From: an uncultured Planktomarina sp.
GTDB taxonomy: Bacteria > Pseudomonadota > Alphaproteobacteria > Rhodobacterales > Rhodobacteraceae
Assembly: GCA_905182425.1 (NCBI GenBank)
Contig: CAJJBP010000026.1
Coordinates: 1 to 35,582 of the forward strand
Direction: 5' to 3'
Length of the DNA stretch: 35,582 bases
A program made the translations under genes and the position numbers. The notes beneath the pieces are model-generated. The model had not been told where the DNA came from. It searched no databases and was given only the letters and a program-made list of their open reading frames with translations. Of the stretch, positions 16,808 through 24,219 are shown one piece after another. How positions within the stretch are numbered: the first letter of the stretch is position 1; every line of letters begins with the position of its first letter.

Positions 16808-18527
16808 ATGACAGATACTAAGATGATCAGAGGTGGCGCCCTATTAGCTCGCGCTCTTAAAGAAAAAGGTGTTGAGCATGTTTTTACCCTGGCTGGTGGC
16901 TTCTGCAATCCGGCTCTTGAAGGTTTTATGGAGTGCCAAATGCCTGTCATCAATACCCCGCATGAACAGATCGCTGGGCACTTGGCGGATGGTCATGCCC
17001 GAATTACCCGTTCACCCACTGTCTGCCTGGTTGGGCCAGAAGGCTTCGCCAACGCAGTACCAGCTATGTTGGAAGCAGGGGGCGAACGCAGCCCAGTCAT
17101 TTTCGTAACTGGTTCATCAACACTTAAGAGGCAAGGTGCTGGTGGTTTCAAGGAGATTGATGACGTCGCAATCGCTGCTCCCTTGGTCAAATATTCCGTA
17201 CAGATCACAGATGGGGAGCGGATCAGTGAGTTTGTAAACCGTGCATGGGTTGCAGCTACTACCGGATACCCTGGGCCCGTTCATATCTCGCTACCGGTAG
17301 ACATTATGTTCTCATCGTTTGCCCCAGACGCGGGGCTCAGCGAGCGTCCATTTAACCGTATGGATCGCCCAGTTGCGCGAGCGTGGCCTGATCCTGCGTC
17401 CTTGTCTTTGGTTCTGGAAAAACTGAGTTGTGCCGAGCGCCCCGTAATTATTGGTGGGCACGGTGTCTGGTGGTCAAAGTCAGAAGACAAGCTTGAAAAG
17501 GTTGGCAAGACATTGCGTCTGCCAATTTTTAATGTCCCTTACCATTCCAAGTTACTTGGTGAGGAATGCGAGGCATATATGGGTTTAGCCGATTTCCATC
17601 AATACCACCCGTCTAAATCCGCGATTCACGAGGCAGATCTGATATTAATGATCGGCGGACGTCTGGACAACCAAATGAACTTTGGCAACCCCCCATTCTT
17701 TACTAACGAGCAAACGCTAATCTGCATCAATGGGAGCCATGAGGAACTTGAATACAATCAAGCCGCCGATGAGGTCTTGCTATCTGATCCAGGTGCCTTT
17801 CTTGAGGCACTCAGCAAGCTAGGCAAAACATGGCCTGCTTGGTTCGATTTGCAAAAAGATCGTCGGGCCGCTTGGGTCGATGAATGGTACGCGCACATGG
17901 AAGCCGAGTCTTTAAAGCCAGGCAAGATGCACCCACTCCAACTGTCGCTGGATGTGCAAGAACAGATGGGCGACGATGATTGGCTAATTTTTGATGGTGG
18001 AAACACCCATTTCTGGTCAGAGATTGCAGTAAACATGGCTGGAGCACGTGGCCAGAAATTGGGGGGGATCATGCACCCTGGCAATTACTCCTTGCTGGGC
18101 GTTGGCGTTTCGTTTGGCGTTTCAGCCAAATCCTTGCATCCGGACCGCAATGTCGTGGTTAATCTCAGGGGATGGCGCTTTTCTTTCAGGTGGCCTATCA
18201 ATCGAGTCTGCTTTCCAGGATAATCTTCCCATCACCATCGTAATCGATAACAACGGTGGGCTTGACTGCATTAGCCAACAACAGGAACGCCTGTTTGCTA
18301 ATGGCAAACACTTCGCCACCGATTTCCGCGATATCCCCTTTCATACGATGTGTGAGGGCATGGGCGGATACGGCGAGCTCGTCGAAACCCGGGATCAACT
18401 GGCCCCAGCCTTACAACGCGCGATGGCCAGCGGGATGGTCGCAATAGTCAACGTGAAATGCCGGGGCGTGATCAGTCCTATCGTCGCGGCAACATCGGAC
18501 AAACGAGACAAGGCTTCGATTGAATAA
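16808..18527 (+). pseudogene. Frameshifted thiamine diphosphate-dependent enzyme (acetolactate synthase/2-ketoacid decarboxylase superfamily)
   Basis: About 573 aa if repaired, the normal length. The Pyr domain carries the catalytic glutamate in NTPHEQIAGHLADG, then the central domain, then the PP domain with GDGAFLSGG ... IDNNGG, the Mg-ThDP signature. The frame breaks at about 18160 by a 1-nt gain (extra A between GTGGTT and ATCTCAGGG), just before GDG. The upstream part alone would end at 18223 without the cofactor site. The family includes acetolactate synthase, benzoylformate decarboxylase, oxalyl-CoA decarboxylase and 2-hydroxyacyl-CoA lyase; I cannot choose. Its stop overlaps the next ATG (TAATG). 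G+C is clearly above the window average in the last third. Confidence 0.88.
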
Positions 18528-18883
18528 TGGCAACACTTTCTTCACATACACTGAACGGTAGTGACGGCACACATGCGGGCGGTATCCCCGTAACACTGAC
18601 CAATCTCAAAACAGGGAAAGTAAGTTTTAGAACACTACATGGATGATGGGCGGCCGATTGTCGCAAGCAGATCAGTGAAGCCTCTAAGTATTGACACTCA
18701 GGCCACTATCTATGAACTGCTGTTCGATGTACACGGGGCCCTACTGGGCCACCCAGAGAAATGCCCGCTACTGTCACTCAAATTGCACTGCGCTTTGCAG
18801 ATGTCGGACCCAAGCGGTTCACGTACCACATGCCCGTCATATTCTAGTCCCGAATTCATATTCAATGTGGAGCTTCAGCATAA
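18527..18883 (+). pseudogene. Degraded 5-hydroxyisourate hydrolase (transthyretin-related)
   Basis: The gene starts ATG at 18527, overlapping the ThDP gene stop. It begins MATLSSHTLNGSDGTHAGGI, the N-terminal pattern of HIU hydrolase, the purine-catabolic enzyme that opens 5-hydroxyisourate. The first frame stops after 39 codons (TGA at about 18644-18646). Later pieces occur in other frames: MDDG, GRLSQADQ, YELLFD, TGPYWATQ, QIALRFADVGPKRFTYHMP, and SPNSYSMW near 18845-18875. The usual terminus is YRGS; here it reads about SA then TAA at 18881-18883, overlapping the next ATG. At least five indels in 350 bases with conserved residues. The family call is mine from motifs. Confidence 0.8.
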
Positions 18884-19997
18884 TGGACGGCCTGAACATG
18901 TCACGCCGCATTCGCCGTACGCCCTACACCGACCGGGTGGAAGAATGCAGGCGTCCGTGGCTTTTCTGTTGTGAACCACATGCTGCTTCCCAAGGCGTTC
19001 GGCCCGACGGTTGAGGAAGACTACTGGCACCTACGGGAGCATGTGCAGATTTGGGATGTGTCAGTTCAGCGCCAAGTCCAAATTACAGGCCCTGATGCAG
19101 CTGCACTTGTTCAGTGGATGACGCCTCGCAACATCTCTAAAGCTAAATTAGGGGATTGTTTTTACATTCCGATCATCGATGCACAAGGCGGGATGATAAA
19201 CGATCCAGTTATGTTAAAACTGGCTGAAGACCGTTCTGGCTTTCCATTGCTGACAGCGATTTACTTTTGTACGCGATGGGTTTGGCACTTGGGCGAGGCA
19301 TGGATGTTAAGATCACGGAGCCAGACGTTAATACTCTCGCCATTCAGGGGCCAAAAGCCGAGGATTTGCTAGCTTCTCAGTTTTTGGCAGCAATGACATA
19401 CGGAATATTGGATTTTTTAAGTATAATTGGATTGATTTCAAAGGTACTCGCCAATTAATAGCGCGGTCAGGCTATTCTCGGCAAGGTGGCTTTGAAATAT
19501 ATCTGCAGGGTGGCCACTTAGGCCCAGCTCTTTGGGACAGTATCTGGGAGGCTGGCCAGGCTTTTAACATCAGGCCGGGCTGTCCAAATCTAATTGAACG
19601 AATTGAGGGAGGCCTTCTCTCTTATGGGAATGAGTTTACACGTGAAAATAATCCCTTTGAGATAGGTCATGGTAAATACTGCACTATCGATAACTCGCTT
19701 GATTACGTCGGTCGGGAAGCTTTACAAAAAATCGCTTTAAATGGTGTATCACGCAAAATACGTGGCGTGGCCTTTGATGGCGGCCCATGCCCAACCTGCT
19801 CGAAGCCATGGCCAGTAATGGTAGAAAAAAAGCAGATAGGTTCAATTACCTCAGCCATATGGTCACCTCGTTTAAAAATAAATATTGGTCAATCGATGGT
19901 GAATAGAGGTTTTTGGGATCCAGGCCAAACCGTCACCGTTCACTCACAAGAGGGGATTGTAAGGTTAGGTGAAGTTTCAGCCCTTCCCTTCACTTAA
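18883..19997 (+). pseudogene. Frameshifted GcvT-fold methyltransferase, DmdA-like (DMSP demethylase family)
   Basis: About 370 aa if repaired. The pieces are SRRIRRTPYTDRVEE, GVRGFSVVNHMLLPKAF, EEDYWHLREHVQIWDVSVQR, GPDAAALVQWMTPRN, RFWLSIADSDLLLYAMGLAL, DVNTLAIQGPKAEDLL, IARSGYSRQGGFEIYLQGG, GCPNLIERIEGGLLSYGNE and a C-terminal barrel ending at 19997. This pattern is typical of tetrahydrofolate-dependent DmdA and close GcvT relatives, which transfer a methyl group from DMSP or a methylated amine. Three lesions are visible: an extra T near 18942, a lost T in CGTTTC near 19237, and a lost T in a T6 run near 19383. True DmdA versus a paralogue cannot be settled by eye. Confidence 0.82.
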
Positions 19998-20101
19998 TCG
20001 GAAACAGCAGCACAGATGGCCTTCCAAGAACTAACACAGGACTTGGTATGTATTAATGATATTAAATATATTAATTAATTCCAACGAAGAGTTTGCAAAT
20101 T

Positions 20102-20119
20102 GTTACTTAATAAAATAAC
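20102..20119. promoter_or_regulatory. Candidate Zur operator
   Basis: Imperfect dyad GTTACTT (20102-20108) - AATA - AAATAAC (20113-20119), arms matching at 6 of 7 positions. It lies 29 bases before the Zur-like gene in an A+T-rich promoter region. Alphaproteobacterial Zur sites are GTTA/TAAC-type A+T-rich dyads, so this fits autoregulation and control of the whole zinc operon. No other strong dyad is seen in 19998-20147. Confidence 0.45.
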
Positions 20120-20147: not shown

Positions 20148-20534
20148 ATGCGGAAACAAGCCATCGTGCGACAGCCTGACATTTTGAGTGTTTTGAATAA
20201 ACAAAATAAATCGATGACTGCATACGATATCCTTGATCAAATGAAACTTTATAAACCTGATTTGGCGACTCCAACGATATATCGCGCCCTAGCAGCATTA
20301 ACAGATCAAGGCCTGGCACATAAGCTTGAATCTTTAAAAGCATTTGTCCCCTGTCGATGTACCCATGAAGCGGCTGTTCCAGTGTTAGCCATCTGTGAGG
20401 ATTGCGGAACAGTAGAGGAATATGACGGTACTTCCTTGCTGCAAAACCTTTCCATCATTTCCTCTCAATCAGCATTCAAAGCTAACCGCCATATCATGTA
20501 AGTTAACGGTCAATGCGACAACTGTTCAGCATAG
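20148..20534 (+). pseudogene. zur: Fur-family zinc regulator, Zur-like, with premature stop before the second CxxC
   Basis: The open frame is 117 codons (to TAA at 20499-20501). The winged helix (TPTIYRALAALTDQGLAHKL), ESLKAFVPCRCTHE and the first structural-zinc pair CEDCG are present. Directly after TAA the same frame continues with VNGQCDNCSA and ends at TAG 20532-20534. QCDNC is exactly the missing second CxxC of Fur-family proteins. One nonsense change (for instance GAA to TAA) therefore removes the last 11 residues. Whether the shorter protein still folds is uncertain. It is the first gene of the zinc operon, 22 bases before the ZrgA-like gene. If the stop is a consensus error, the gene is a normal 128-residue Zur. 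Confidence 0.85.
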
Positions 20535-20556
20535 TATATTATTATAAGGAATTTTA

Positions 20557-21249
20557 ATGAATATTTTTCCAATTATCGTAGTAAACGCAATCGTCGCCAC
20601 AGCTGTTATCGGGGAAGAGGCCCGACAGCTTGATGCACATGAACACGGCATCGGGCATTTGAATATCGCATTTGAAGATCAAAAAATAGCTATGCAATTG
20701 CATGCACCGGGTGCGGACATCGTTGGCTTTGAATACAAAGCGGAAAGTTCAGAAGATCTTGCTTCGATTGATTTCGCATTGAAAATGTTAGCACGACCGC
20801 TGGAACTCTTTGTTATACCCAATGCGGCCGGGTGTGATATCTTGAGCGCTCGCGCCGCTCTGGAAAGCGGCGAAAACCAAAATAACGGCGGCGAGGATCA
20901 CGAGGATCACGAGGATCACGAGGATCACGAGGATCACGAGGATCACGAGGATCACGAGGATCACGAGGATCACGAGGATCACGAGGATCACGAGGATCAA
21001 CATACTGAGGACCATGGTCAAGACAAAAATGACGAAGACAATTCAAATAAGGAAGGCCATACAGAGTTTCATGGTGAATATTTGCTAACTTGCACCGATC
21101 CTTCCGCCGTGACCGAAATTGCGTTTGATTATTTTAGCGTTTTCATAAATGCCTTGAAGGTTGAAGTGCAGATTATATCGGACAGTGGATCTGCTTCGTT
21201 TGAAGTTAAACGTGACGCACCAACACTTGATTTAGGGGAAATATTCTAA
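20557..21249 (+). CDS. zrgA: DUF2796 / ZrgA-like periplasmic zinc-binding protein with EDH repeat
   Basis: Secreted metal-binding protein, 230 aa. A short N-terminal hydrophobic segment (1-18) acts as signal peptide, followed by the family's [15 protein letters not shown] (24-38) with histidines at 28 and 30. A conserved [13 protein letters not shown] segment leads to a low-complexity region: eleven perfect EDH triplets (113-145), then EDQ and HTEDHGQ. The C-terminal part (HGEYLLTC...) resumes the DUF2796 domain. DUF2796 proteins are the ZrgA component of a zinc-uptake locus in Vibrio. Here the gene follows a Zur-like regulator and precedes an ABC ATPase and permease. The repeat gives a strongly acidic, His-rich loop that should bind Zn2+. 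Confidence 0.88.
20893..21000. repeat. 9-bp tandem repeat, eleven perfect copies plus one degenerate
   Basis: The unit GAGGATCAC (Glu-Asp-His) runs from 20893 to 20991 without a single mismatch, and a twelfth unit (20992-21000) ends CAA (Gln). The repeat keeps the frame, so copy-number changes would lengthen or shorten the metal-binding loop without breaking the gene. Nucleotide identity with no synonymous drift implies recent expansion by slippage or recombination. Confidence 0.97.
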
Positions 21250-21250
21250 G

Positions 21251-21955
21251 TTGGGAGCTGCAGAACCTTCAATCATACATCTCGAAAAAGTCTATTACAG
21301 ATGGCCTGGTCGAGCATCGTTTACGCTGCATGTACCTAAATTGACATTGAGACGGTCTGAAACTGTTTTGCTTCTCGGCGAAAGTGGGTCTGGGAAATCA
21401 ACGTTATTATCCCTAATTTGTGGGACCGTCAGTGCAGATTCAGGACATATTTTTGTCGCTGGGGCAGACATCAGCAAACTTTCTGCGGGAAAGCGGGATA
21501 GCTTCCGAGCCGAACAAATTGGATTAATTTTTCAACAGTTTAATCTGTTGCCGTTCGCCAGCGTAAAAGACAATATTTTATTACCTTTAAATTTTGCACC
21601 CAAACGCCGCAAACGAGTGACCAATTTACACCTCGAGGCAGAGAGACTTTGCGATGAGCTAGGTTTGTCTGATGATTTGATAATGGCCCGCGCTGGAACT
21701 TTGAGTGTCGGCCAGCAGCAACGGGTAGCTGCAGCGCGAGCATTAATTGGGGCACCACCGCTTATTATTGCAGATGAACCCACCTCCTCACTAGATGCAG
21801 CCACGCAAACAGTATTTCTATCTTTATTATTTTCGCAGGCACGGGCAAATGGATCAACTTTGTTGATGGTCAGCCATGATGCTCGCTTATCGAACCAATT
21901 TGACCGAGTGATCCACATGTCAGAGATTATTCAAACCGAGCGAGGAATGCCGTGA
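21251..21955 (+). CDS. ABC transporter ATPase, LolD/MacB type (zinc operon)
   Basis: ATPase partner of the FtsX-like permease, 234 aa. Walker A is GESGSGKST (43-51), Q-loop LIFQQFNLLPFASVKDNILL, signature LSVGQQQRVAAARAL and Walker B LIIADEPTSSLD, with a switch His in MVSHD. The start is TTG 21251, one base after the ZrgA-like stop, and no ATG lies near, so coupling is likely. This group is typical of LolD/MacB-type mechanotransmission systems, so transport across the inner membrane should not be taken for granted. Context points to zinc handling. Confidence 0.93.
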   Translation: MGAAEPSIIHLEKVYYRWPGRASFTLHVPKLTLRRSETVLLLGESGSGKSTLLSLICGTVSADSGHIFVAGADISKLSAGKRDSFRAEQIGLIFQQFNLLPFASVKDNILLPLNFAPKRRKRVTNLHLEAERLCDELGLSDDLIMARAGTLSVGQQQRVAAARALIGAPPLIIADEPTSSLDAATQTVFLSLLFSQARANGSTLLMVSHDARLSNQFDRVIHMSEIIQTERGMP

Positions 21956-23202
21956 TTTTACGCCTGGCAATGGGCTCATTAACGGCCCGAGCACTTACGG
22001 TTGGAATGACAATCCTAGCGATTGCCGTTTCAGTCGCACTCTTTCTTGGCGTTGAAAAAGTACGCACTGGGGCTAAAGCGAGCTTTGCCAACACAATTTC
22101 TGGGACTGATTTGATTGTTGGTGCACGGTCGGGATCAGTACAATTACTCTTGTATTCTATATTTAGAATAGGGAACGCGACCAACAATTTGACGTGGGAA
22201 AGCTATCAAAATATTGCGGCACACAAGGACGTGGATTGGATAGTACCAATTTCACTTGGCGACAGCCATCGACAGTTCCGCGTCATGGGAACTACTCCTA
22301 ATTTTTTTGATCGATACAAATATAGGTCAGGCCAATCACTCGTAATACAAGATGGCGAGTTGTTAGACGATCTGTTTGATACAGTCATTGGTGCAGATGT
22401 CGCAGCAACTCTTGGTTATGAGATTGGAGATCCGATTGTAGTAGCACACGGGATAGCTTCCTTCATGGAGCACCAAGACCAACCGTTTTCTGTGTCAGGC
22501 ATTTTAATGAAAACTGGAACACCGGTGGATCGTACGGTAGTTGTTAGTCTTGAAGCGATAGAGGCCATCCATGTGGATTGGCAAAGCGGAGCCCAGATAC
22601 CAGGCCAGGTTACACCCGCAGACTCCTTGCGTCAAATGGAGCTAAAGCCAAAAGCAATCACTGCAGCCCTTTTAGGTACCAAAAGTCGTCTGAAAGTCTT
22701 TGCCTTGCAACGGTCAATAAATGAATATCCAGAAGAACCGTTGATCGCAATTTTACCTGGTGTCGCTTTGCAAGAATTATGGCAAATTGTTGGTATTGCT
22801 GAAAAATCCCTAATTGGTGTATCTATAATGGTTGTCGTTACAGCTTTTATTGGAATGGTGGCAACAATTTTATCTAGTTTGAGCGAACGCCGCAGGGAAA
22901 TGGCAATTTTTAGAGCTATGGGTGCACGCCCTCGTACAATCGTGACACTTCTTTTGCTTGAAGCTATTTTGATGGCAGGTATTGGTGCATGCCTTGGTAT
23001 GGTTCTTTTGTATTTAGGCCTATTCGCTGGTCAACCGCTTATTGACCGTTCATTTGGCCTTTGGCTTCCCATCGAACCCCCAACCATCCGTGAGGTTAAG
23101 CTGTTATTAAGTATTGTAATAACAGGTGCACTCGTGAGCATATTCCCCGCGATTCGCGCTTATCGCATGTCACTTGCAGATGGCATGATAGCCAGAATTT
23201 GA
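21952..23202 (+). CDS. FtsX/MacB-type ABC permease (zinc operon)
   Basis: Inner-membrane protein, 416 aa. It has one N-terminal helix (about 14-36), a large periplasmic MacB-PCD-like domain (about 45-275), then three C-terminal helices (about 283-305, 327-360, 384-404) with the cytoplasmic SSLSERRREMAIFRAMGARP loop that defines FtsX-family permeases. The start GTG 21952 overlaps the ATPase stop by 4 bases (GTGA). With the ATPase it forms a type VII-like transporter. Neighbouring DUF2796 and DUF3299 genes suggest it works with periplasmic zinc-binding proteins. Confidence 0.93.
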   Translation: MILRLAMGSLTARALTVGMTILAIAVSVALFLGVEKVRTGAKASFANTISGTDLIVGARSGSVQLLLYSIFRIGNATNNLTWESYQNIAAHKDVDWIVPISLGDSHRQFRVMGTTPNFFDRYKYRSGQSLVIQDGELLDDLFDTVIGADVAATLGYEIGDPIVVAHGIASFMEHQDQPFSVSGILMKTGTPVDRTVVVSLEAIEAIHVDWQSGAQIPGQVTPADSLRQMELKPKAITAALLGTKSRLKVFALQRSINEYPEEPLIAILPGVALQELWQIVGIAEKSLIGVSIMVVVTAFIGMVATILSSLSERRREMAIFRAMGARPRTIVTLLLLEAILMAGIGACLGMVLLYLGLFAGQPLIDRSFGLWLPIEPPTIREVKLLLSIVITGALVSIFPAIRAYRMSLADGMIARI

Positions 23203-23215
23203 GAAAATAACCAAA

Positions 23216-23722
23216 ATGCAGAAAATACGACGACGCCATTTGATTACTACAGCACTGGCAAGTGCTATGCTGCCGCAATCAGCGTCGGGTAGTAAGGCCA
23301 CAGAAATAATGTGGGATGATTTAATCCCACAGGGAGTGCCTTACTCAGAAATTATCGGTGAGGGAGAGATGGATGAGCTCAACGATTATTGGAGACCTAT
23401 TTACGATGCAAACGCGACAAAACTAAATCCAGCGCTCAATGACGCTTACATCAAAATACCTGGCTTCATAATTCCTATTGATTTATCGACAGCTGGCGTA
23501 ACCAAATTTGTACTAGTACCATATGTCGGGGCTTGCATTCATACCCCCCCACCACCACCAAACCAACTTATCTTTGTTTCCACTCTGGTACCTTGGTCAA
23601 GTGACGACCTCTGGGAAGCTGTTTGGGTAACGGGTAACATGCGGCATGGGATTCAAACAACCGAATTGGGGGAGACAGGCTATGTTCTTACCGCCGATAA
23701 AATTGAGGTTTATGTTTGGTGA
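23216..23722 (+). CDS. DUF3299 family exported protein, copy 1
   Basis: Small exported protein, 168 aa. An Arg-rich, twin-arginine-like N-terminus (KIRRRHLITTALASAM) precedes the DUF3299 core: MWDDLIPQGVPYSE, IPGFIIPIDLSTAGVTKFVL, and the signature VPYVGACIHTPPPPPNQLIF around residues 101-120. The single Cys-x-His in GACIH may bind metal. DUF3299 genes commonly accompany DUF2796 and an FtsX-type ABC pair; a role in periplasmic zinc transfer is inference. It starts 13 bases after the permease and overlaps the next gene by 4 bases if GTG 23719 is used. Confidence 0.88.
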   Translation: MQKIRRRHLITTALASAMLPQSASGSKATEIMWDDLIPQGVPYSEIIGEGEMDELNDYWRPIYDANATKLNPALNDAYIKIPGFIIPIDLSTAGVTKFVLVPYVGACIHTPPPPPNQLIFVSTLVPWSSDDLWEAVWVTGNMRHGIQTTELGETGYVLTADKIEVYVW

Positions 23723-24219
23723 GAATAGGAATTAATAGGCGGAATTTATTGGCAAGTTTAGGTCTCTTTGGAACAATACCTCATTTGGTATGGGCCGAAG
23801 ATTACATTGATATAGACTGGAAAGATCTCGTTCCGGAAGGCCAATCCGTTATCCCCCCAATGCTGCAAGGTCTAATCGATCACGACCAAGCACCACTAAC
23901 TAGTCAACAGCCCATATCTAGTGGTGTTCGTACAGACTGGAATGGCCAGATTGTACGCTTGCCAGGGTTCATAGTTCCTATTGATTATTCCGGAACGGGC
24001 GTCACTGCATTTATCCTTGTGCCGTTTGTCGGTGCCTGCGTGCACGTTCCACCGCCGCCAGCTAATCAACTTGTATTTGTCACTACAGAAAAACCCTACC
24101 AGAGCTCCGGTCTTTTTGAGGCCGTTAATGTGATCGGCATGTTTGGCGTCTCGTCAATGTCAACACAGCTTGCTGATATTTCTTATGCTTTATCTGCAGA
24201 TCTTATCGAACCGTTTTGA
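23719..24219 (+). CDS. DUF3299 family exported protein, copy 2
   Basis: Tandem paralogue of the previous gene, 166 aa from GTG 23719, which overlaps the TGA of copy 1 (GTGA); TTG 23716 is one codon earlier. The leader RRNLLASLGLFGTIPHLVWA fits Tat or Sec export. The core repeats the family: IDWKDLVPEGQSV, LPGFIVPIDYSGTGVTAF and VPFVGACVHVPPPPANQLVF. Copies share the core but differ strongly in the leader and in the stretch between it and the signature, so the duplication is not recent and the two may have distinct partners. It is the last gene of the zinc operon. Confidence 0.87.
   Translation: MRIGINRRNLLASLGLFGTIPHLVWAEDYIDIDWKDLVPEGQSVIPPMLQGLIDHDQAPLTSQQPISSGVRTDWNGQIVRLPGFIVPIDYSGTGVTAFILVPFVGACVHVPPPPANQLVFVTTEKPYQSSGLFEAVNVIGMFGVSSMSTQLADISYALSADLIEPF

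Follow-up and report, generated by a model that had tools for sequence, protein, structure and literature searches.

What does an ATP-binding cassette (ABC) ATPase with an FtsX-type permease do in a zinc locus, import, export, or a task within the periplasm? The question is raised by six frames on the + strand (20148-24219) of a stretch of 35,582 nucleotides, hereafter the window (contig CAJJBP010000026.1, positions 1 to 35,582, assembly GCA_905182425.1, uncultured Planktomarina sp., Rhodobacteraceae), which encode a Fur-type regulator, ZrgA, the ATPase, the permease, and two DUF3299 proteins (D1 and D2). The first-pass annotation, made from the letters of the window, had named these six frames, likened them to the Vibrio zrg zinc locus, and called the cooperation of their parts unsettled. 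All six are found in place with agreeing Pfam families (Table 1), and the published views are indeed divided, with the zrg/PA4063-4066 system called an importer by one group (PMC9820375) and an exporter by another (PMC11481552), and with no job assigned to DUF3299 in the accessible text of those papers. Our answer, tentative and held with less than even confidence, is that the ATPase and FtsX/LolE-type permease hand zinc among ZrgA and the two DUF3299 proteins rather than import it, probably under a Fur-family repressor of the cluster's own.

Judged by its gene families, the cluster is a known zrg/PA4063-4066-type system of the zinc-starvation family, with ZrgA, an adjacent ABC ATPase and FtsX/MacB-type permease, and DUF3299 all present. 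The likeness to Vibrio ZrgABCDE is borne out by the ZrgA equivalog model of NCBIfam (NF047873, 200.5 bits against a cut-off of 185) and by matches of ZrgA to the solved V. cholerae ZrgA (8ezw) and Pseudomonas aeruginosa PA4063 (7ahw), with the ATPase, the FtsX-type permease, and DUF3299 (ZrgE) also shared, and with the Vibrio genes shown to be zinc-regulated (PMC9817125, PMC9820375). In contrast to ZrgABCDE, the gene order is that given above, DUF3299 N-termini carry twin arginines, a regulator gene and operator-like site are present, and ZrgD is absent among the six frames (Pfam). PA4063-PA4066 of P. aeruginosa has the same four protein families, with PA4066 (4hsp) a relative of the DUF3299 proteins in both sequence and fold, however it holds one DUF3299 with a Sec-like N-terminus by eye (L118 of our numbered loci), lacks a Fur-type gene beside the plasmid copy examined, and is proposed to export pyochelin-cobalt. 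Pfam searches of the six proteins gave no ZnuA match of the ZnuABC-type (cluster A-I) importers, no ABC-3 permease (the permease matches FtsX and MacB_PCD only), and no MacA/HlyD adaptor of MacAB-TolC.

Members of the FtsX/LolE/MacB superfamily are mechanical ABC machines that work on the periplasmic side of the inner membrane, and the model of the permease (pLDDT 82.6, pTM 0.71) shows four long C- and N-terminal helices, with a large domain separating the first from the second. The protein has five histidines, with His166 and His174 kept in 156 of 156 permeases and His207 in 155, whether or not ZrgA is present. This set includes the window and overlapping genomes, with 20 short-locus sequences and fragments below ~380 residues set aside, and its 27 permeases "without ZrgA" include three from loci in which ZrgA went undetected (L239, L236, L237) and one from Deinococcus (L119) that lacks an adjacent DUF3299. 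As aligned, the three histidines are missing from the LolC/E-like and ADOP-like permeases of the same genome. The closest working analogue of the proposed machine is probably LolCDE, from which the soluble carrier LolA receives the cargo; it differs in that the cargo here would be metal rather than lipoprotein, in the histidine trio, and in scores far below cut-off (LolD 152 bits against 307.75, LolCE 29.7 against 362.45). The best NCBIfam models of the ATPase are DevA, FtsE, and LolD, each below its cut-off.

The two DUF3299 proteins retain the GAC[IV]H signature noted at first pass, as GACIH in D1 and GACVH in D2. All 52 aligned DUF3299 sequences keep the G, A, C, and H of GACxH with four prolines and NQ behind, and a wider set of eleven nearly so; a division of D1 from D2 by signature (QQ motif against KLNP) was not clean. 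Twin arginines are present in 38/38 D1 and 35/36 D2 proteins of Rhodobacterales. A function for DUF3299 was not found in the literature as far as accessible, searched also under its COG and Pfam names in connection with zinc and enzymes, and PA4066 is unnamed in the accessible main text of a P. aeruginosa paper on substrates of twin-arginine translocation (Tat).

Outside zrg clusters, the genomic surroundings of DUF3299 often link it to exported enzymes of zinc-hydrolase type. DUF3299 occurs in at least 82 of 292 genomes of an order sample (Rhodobacterales), from which 59 regions around the DUF3299 matches listed, and the znu region of the assembly under study, were taken. Outside zrg loci (57 loci with 63 DUF3299 genes, plasmid records included), a same-strand amidohydrolase or metallo-beta-lactamase (MBL)-fold gene lies within 400 bases of 26 of the 63 genes and within 5 kb of 39, an FtsX permease stands beside 20, and neither link is seen for 12. 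Ten such neighbours examined in Pfam comprised eight amidohydrolase or MBL-fold proteins, one OprB porin, and one protein of no family; the hydrolase N-termini resemble signal peptides by eye, and from knowledge of their families we take these hydrolases to be zinc users. Within 1.5 kb of DUF3299 blocks, 171 kb of sequence holds 42 of their genes, against a single one in the 331 kb lying more than 4.5 kb away and none in the flanks (449 kb) of 44 zrg loci outside the named set; two zrg loci of named organisms (L168 and L177) do have such hydrolases in their flanks. Six of the counted loci supplied the hydrolase queries; with these removed, adjacency is found for 22 of 56 genes, spread over 8 of the 14 genera or records, and one genus supplies 22 of the 56.

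In a phylum sample, DUF3299 was found in 93 of 398 genomes. Forty-four genes from 40 further regions, mostly chosen as second copies, include 13 beside both FtsX and ZrgA, 5 beside FtsX only, 2 beside ZrgA only, and 5 with an adjacent hydrolase, one of which repeats a Vibrio fortis plasmid of the first set (L295, L117). On that plasmid DUF3299 lies directly behind a same-strand amidohydrolase gene, with a second amidohydrolase nearby. A transporter is the commonest context of DUF3299, yet not an invariable one; PA4063- and PA4066-type genes have been stated to occur invariably with a transporter (PMC11481552), which does not hold in these samples because DUF3299, and ZrgA-DUF3299 pairs, occur without one. 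In two loci (L286 and L288) a Fur-type gene, zrgA, and DUF3299 follow one another and the ATPase and permease are missing; a large protein, an exported S46-type peptidase by eye, comes next in L286, and separate zrgA-ATPase-permease-DUF3299 clusters exist in the same genomes (L287, L289).

An ATP-driven hand-off in the periplasm is suggested by the combination of the permease superfamily and its LolE/MacB-like model, the conserved histidines on the outer face, a zinc-collecting partner, and the link of DUF3299 to exported enzymes of zinc-using type, with the ZrgA-DUF3299 loci that lack a transporter (L286, L288) pointing the same way. Upon zinc shortage the repressor would leave its 18-bp operator and ZrgA would gather zinc in the periplasm, the permease pair would use ATP to move the extracytoplasmic domain, whose conserved histidines may take or pass the metal, and the DUF3299 proteins, predicted to be Tat-exported ready-folded in Rhodobacterales, would carry zinc to client enzymes or to an importer. 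ZnuA was found in all 46 genomes searched, which agrees with a role alongside import, though it is no proof of one. The first-pass suggestion that the FtsX-type pair argues against simple import, and may serve periplasmic carriers, thus gains indirect support, with every transfer step one that we infer.

We consider it unlikely that the system imports after all, with ZrgA as the solute-binding protein of a ZrgABC-type importer, the permease moving zinc into the cytoplasm, and DUF3299 assisting. Growth of znuA-negative V. cholerae under zinc limitation needs zrgA, which is easiest read as import and weighs against a hand-off (PMC9820375), and the zrg genes of V. parahaemolyticus rise 76- to 206-fold in zinc shortage (PMC9817125). 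However, the permease is of the FtsX/MacB_PCD type, with a large domain placed between its first two helices in the model, ZnuA is already present in every genome tested, and DUF3299 often stands beside exported enzymes without a permease. We know of no importer in the FtsX/MacB_PCD-type superfamily. A MacB-type exporter, with ZrgA and DUF3299 helping the ATPase and permease to drive a metal-chelator complex out of the periplasm, also seems improbable. Foldseek places MacB (5gko, E-value 3.2e-17) before LolE (2.8e-16), which makes the exporter somewhat more likely and the hand-off slightly less so. VIA-align instead scores 5xu1_M and LolE above MacB, and the fold by itself, as modelled, does not appear to separate the two. 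Two HlyD queries of the zrg loci fetched before the phylum-wide set found no adaptor gene in zrg operons, with the sole HlyD match in a zrg locus lying ~4 kb away beside a major facilitator superfamily pump (L114), and the invariable link with a transporter published for PA4063/PA4066-like genes fails here. It is highly unlikely that DUF3299 instead helps exported enzymes to fold or to take up zinc, with an FtsEX-like ATPase-permease pair that switches these enzymes on and moves no metal, given that the permease histidines are kept where the partner is ZrgA and that the flanks of the 44 zrg loci outside the named set are free of such hydrolases, unlike those of the named loci L168 and L177.

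Alongside the V. cholerae growth phenotype, the Foldseek ranking, and the ambiguity of the fold, several further points weigh against the hand-off. Single zrgE knockouts in V. cholerae are described as without effect (PMC9820375), and PA4066 showed no evident binding of zinc. An HlyD-like gene lies beside some ZrgA-less ATPase-permease-DUF3299 operons (L092, L095, L127, L115), which suits an export pump. Of the 44 phylum-wide genes, 19 have no adjacent hydrolase, FtsX, or ZrgA, whereas FtsX adjoins DUF3299 in 28 of the 30 best-scoring phylum loci (L241-L270, all short and outside the 44-gene count). At first pass, a DUF3299 found mostly in contexts without a metal link had been seen as fatal to a zinc role; such contexts are the minority in Rhodobacterales (the 12 of 63 above), with those 19 of 44 showing no recognised link phylum-wide. 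Lastly, Tat-type N-termini were scored in only 2 of 29 gammaproteobacterial DUF3299 proteins of named loci, by a pattern that differs from that of the Rhodobacterales count, and that also scored 6 of 45 ZrgA, in five of which the arginines stood before the start Met by eye.

Cytoplasmic loading, read from the Tat-type N-termini, was considered as the core of the mechanism and dropped, since twin arginines are near-universal in Rhodobacterales but rare in gammaproteobacterial DUF3299; they are a trait of the family, outside any general mechanism.

The predicted operator of the cluster is an 18-bp near-palindrome (pattern upstream of Fur-led clusters GTTAYTTTATAAARTAAC). At up to one mismatch, 15 of the 17 Fur-led genomes have it at exactly one site, before the cluster, and none of the 29 other genomes has it, with a reversed-pattern control finding none in 46; the 29 comprise 28 genomes whose cluster lacks a Fur-type gene, one of which (G004) carries a 30-bit Fur-type fragment beside zrgA (L080), and G256, where zrgA was not seen. 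The remaining two Fur-led genomes carry a two-mismatch version, as does the plasmid-borne Fur-led cluster of Phaeobacter inhibens 2.10, a cluster that has zrgA, ATPase, permease, and a single DUF3299, and the Fur-type start codon lies 26-37 bases downstream in 17/17. From this co-occurrence, the cluster-borne Fur-type protein is predicted to bind the palindrome. All 17 genomes also encode a canonical Zur and hold 2-9 TGTTATNNNATAACA-like sites each (0-4 for the reversed pattern), one directly beside the canonical zur gene in at least 11 of the 17. Both regulators are of the Fur family, Zur is the nearest NCBIfam model of the cluster-borne protein, and the half-sites are related (GTTA...TAAC), however the half-sites here are 10 bases apart rather than 5 as in Zur sites, and the two proteins of the same genomes share a mean identity of 28.3%, against 67.6% and 59.0% within the groups.

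A canonical Zur box as the sole operator was also considered. Most Fur-led sites score 9/10 against that box in one half, and because some TGTTATNNNATAACA-like matches are one half of the palindrome, global Zur may bind Fur-led sites as well. Of the 28 clusters without a Fur-type gene, 10 have a TGTTA-N5-TAACA-like site, a form described for Caulobacter Zur (PMC4176598), and 18 have neither site in the stretch searched. Exceptions were met among loci from named organisms, where the Fur-led L166 has the canonical box and no private palindrome, and where L165, L174, and L203 have private-like sites (up to two mismatches) with no Fur-type gene found, as does L090 outside that set; L163, L167, and L191 of the named set match G239, G142, and G233, so that the two sets overlap. 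A literature search on a second Zur in roseobacters returned nothing among the matches listed, as far as their text was accessible. In one relative, the canonical Zur match (G130:C31:32939-33466) contains one TAA.

The regulator gene, here named zrgR, has a FUR domain above the gathering score (37.7 against 23.1 bits) and falls below the NCBIfam Zur equivalog cut-off (67.5 against 167 bits). Its frame was called correctly at first pass, however an early stop and the operator were overlooked. A TAA at 20499-20501 replaces the Glu codon of the motif HIxExHGxCxxC, leaving the C-terminal CxxC, which has a structural role in Zur, behind the stop; all 16 relatives read through this motif uninterrupted. 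The lesion is, to judge from the frame past the stop, which still reads VNGQCDNCSA, and from these relatives, either recent or a sequence error. Spacing is affected as well, with 55 bases to zrgA from the TAA and 22 from the TAG at 20532-20534; the gaps of 1-22 bases and 4-base overlaps first reported stand otherwise, save that the D1/D2 overlap depends on the D2 start (7 bases with the listed TTG, 4 with the GTG one codon on). Just upstream, a thiamine-pyrophosphate enzyme gene (16808-18527) is split, with the N-terminal and central domains in one frame and the C-terminal domain in an overlapping frame, and an aminomethyltransferase (GCV_T) type gene (18639-20000) lies in pieces over several frames, making, with the regulator stop, three lesions within ~4 kb. 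As these two genes are also broken, a real lesion and a sequence error are both possible; if the stop is real, loss of the CxxC would leave the operon unrepressed. The assembly (83.8% complete) holds four Fur-family genes, one adjoining znuA. Promoter and terminator scans of the cluster gave counts near chance (12 against 9.4 and 5 against 4.5).

Table 1. Positions of the zrg-type cluster features in the window
Feature	Positions	Strand	Basis
Near-palindrome, 18 bp, GTTACTTAATAAAATAAC, predicted operator of the cluster-borne regulator, 28 bases before ATG	20102..20119	+	single place in own assembly at up to 1 mismatch
zrgR, Fur/Zur-family regulator gene, 117 residues, TAA before C-terminal CxxC	20148..20501	+	Pfam FUR 37.7 bits
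In-frame regulator remainder past the stop, VNGQCDNCSA then TAG	20502..20534	+	translation
zrgA (DUF2796), His-rich periplasmic zinc-binding protein family	20557..21249	+	NCBIfam NF047873; Pfam ZrgA 152.4 bits
12 perfect 9-bp copies (Glu-Asp-His units) in the His-rich loop of ZrgA	20892..20999	+	Tandem Repeats Finder (TRF), 100% matches
ABC ATPase, DevA/FtsE/LolD-like	21251..21955	+	Pfam ABC_tran 109.2 bits
FtsX/LolE/MacB-type permease, large extracytoplasmic domain	21952..23202	+	Pfam FtsX 50.4 bits, MacB_PCD 50.5 bits
Predicted metal-handling site: codons of His166 (22447-22449), His174 (22471-22473), His207 (22570-22572)	22447..22572	+	conservation
D1, first DUF3299, OB-fold, twin-arginine N-terminus; GACIH 23528-23542	23216..23722	+	Pfam 122.1 bits
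D2, second DUF3299, twin-arginine N-terminus; GACVH 24031-24045	23716..24219	+	Pfam 126.2 bits; 4hsp, E 3e-24

The repeat noted earlier in zrgA is present as 12 identical copies, the sole array reported by TRF in the window; longer than any other exact array in the 45 zrgA genes compared, it fits a young slippage array. V. cholerae ZrgA can hold as many as 10 zinc ions, with four or five bound via its His-rich loop (PMC9820375).

Two DUF3299 copies are common in Rhodobacterales zrg loci and not special to this genome, with 45 zrgA loci, the window included, comprising 15 of the order Fur-ZrgA-ATPase-permease-D1-D2, 14 likewise without the Fur-type gene (29/45 together), and 16 with one DUF3299. 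In the assembly, D1 and D2 are the only DUF3299 genes found and the one ZnuA lies on another contig. Variants of the layout include MBL-fold gene, HlyD-like gene, ATPase, permease, and DUF3299 operons without ZrgA (L092, L095, L127), a possible tripartite variant; plasmid p111 of Pseudooceanicola algae (L120), with ZnuA, two GTP-binding proteins, DUF1826, and zrg genes with two DUF3299 consecutively; Tropicimonas isoalkanivorans (L168), where a third DUF3299 and an amidohydrolase gene lie 3 kb upstream of a two-DUF3299 zrg cluster on the other strand; and L050, where D1 and D2 stand apart from the other cluster genes and what are by eye transposase-like genes come next.

While zrg/PA4063-4066 systems have been called importers and exporters, the new elements here are the conserved histidine trio of the permease, DUF3299 beside exported enzymes of zinc-hydrolase type outside zrg loci, the private palindrome, and the early stop of the regulator. 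The histidines and the DUF3299-hydrolase operons are simple experimental handles, and a regulator whose genome holds just one operator-like site offers a small, naturally occurring case of a second metal sensor paired with a predicted operator of its own. More broadly, though we regard this as rather doubtful, the ATPase, the His-triad LolE-like permease, and DUF3299 might form a general ATP-driven zinc-loading machine of the periplasm, a metal-ion counterpart of LolCDE, with ZrgA as its collector in starvation and DUF3299 as a zinc-insertion chaperone for exported hydrolases elsewhere, one copy of which in roseobacters would be placed under a single-target regulator.

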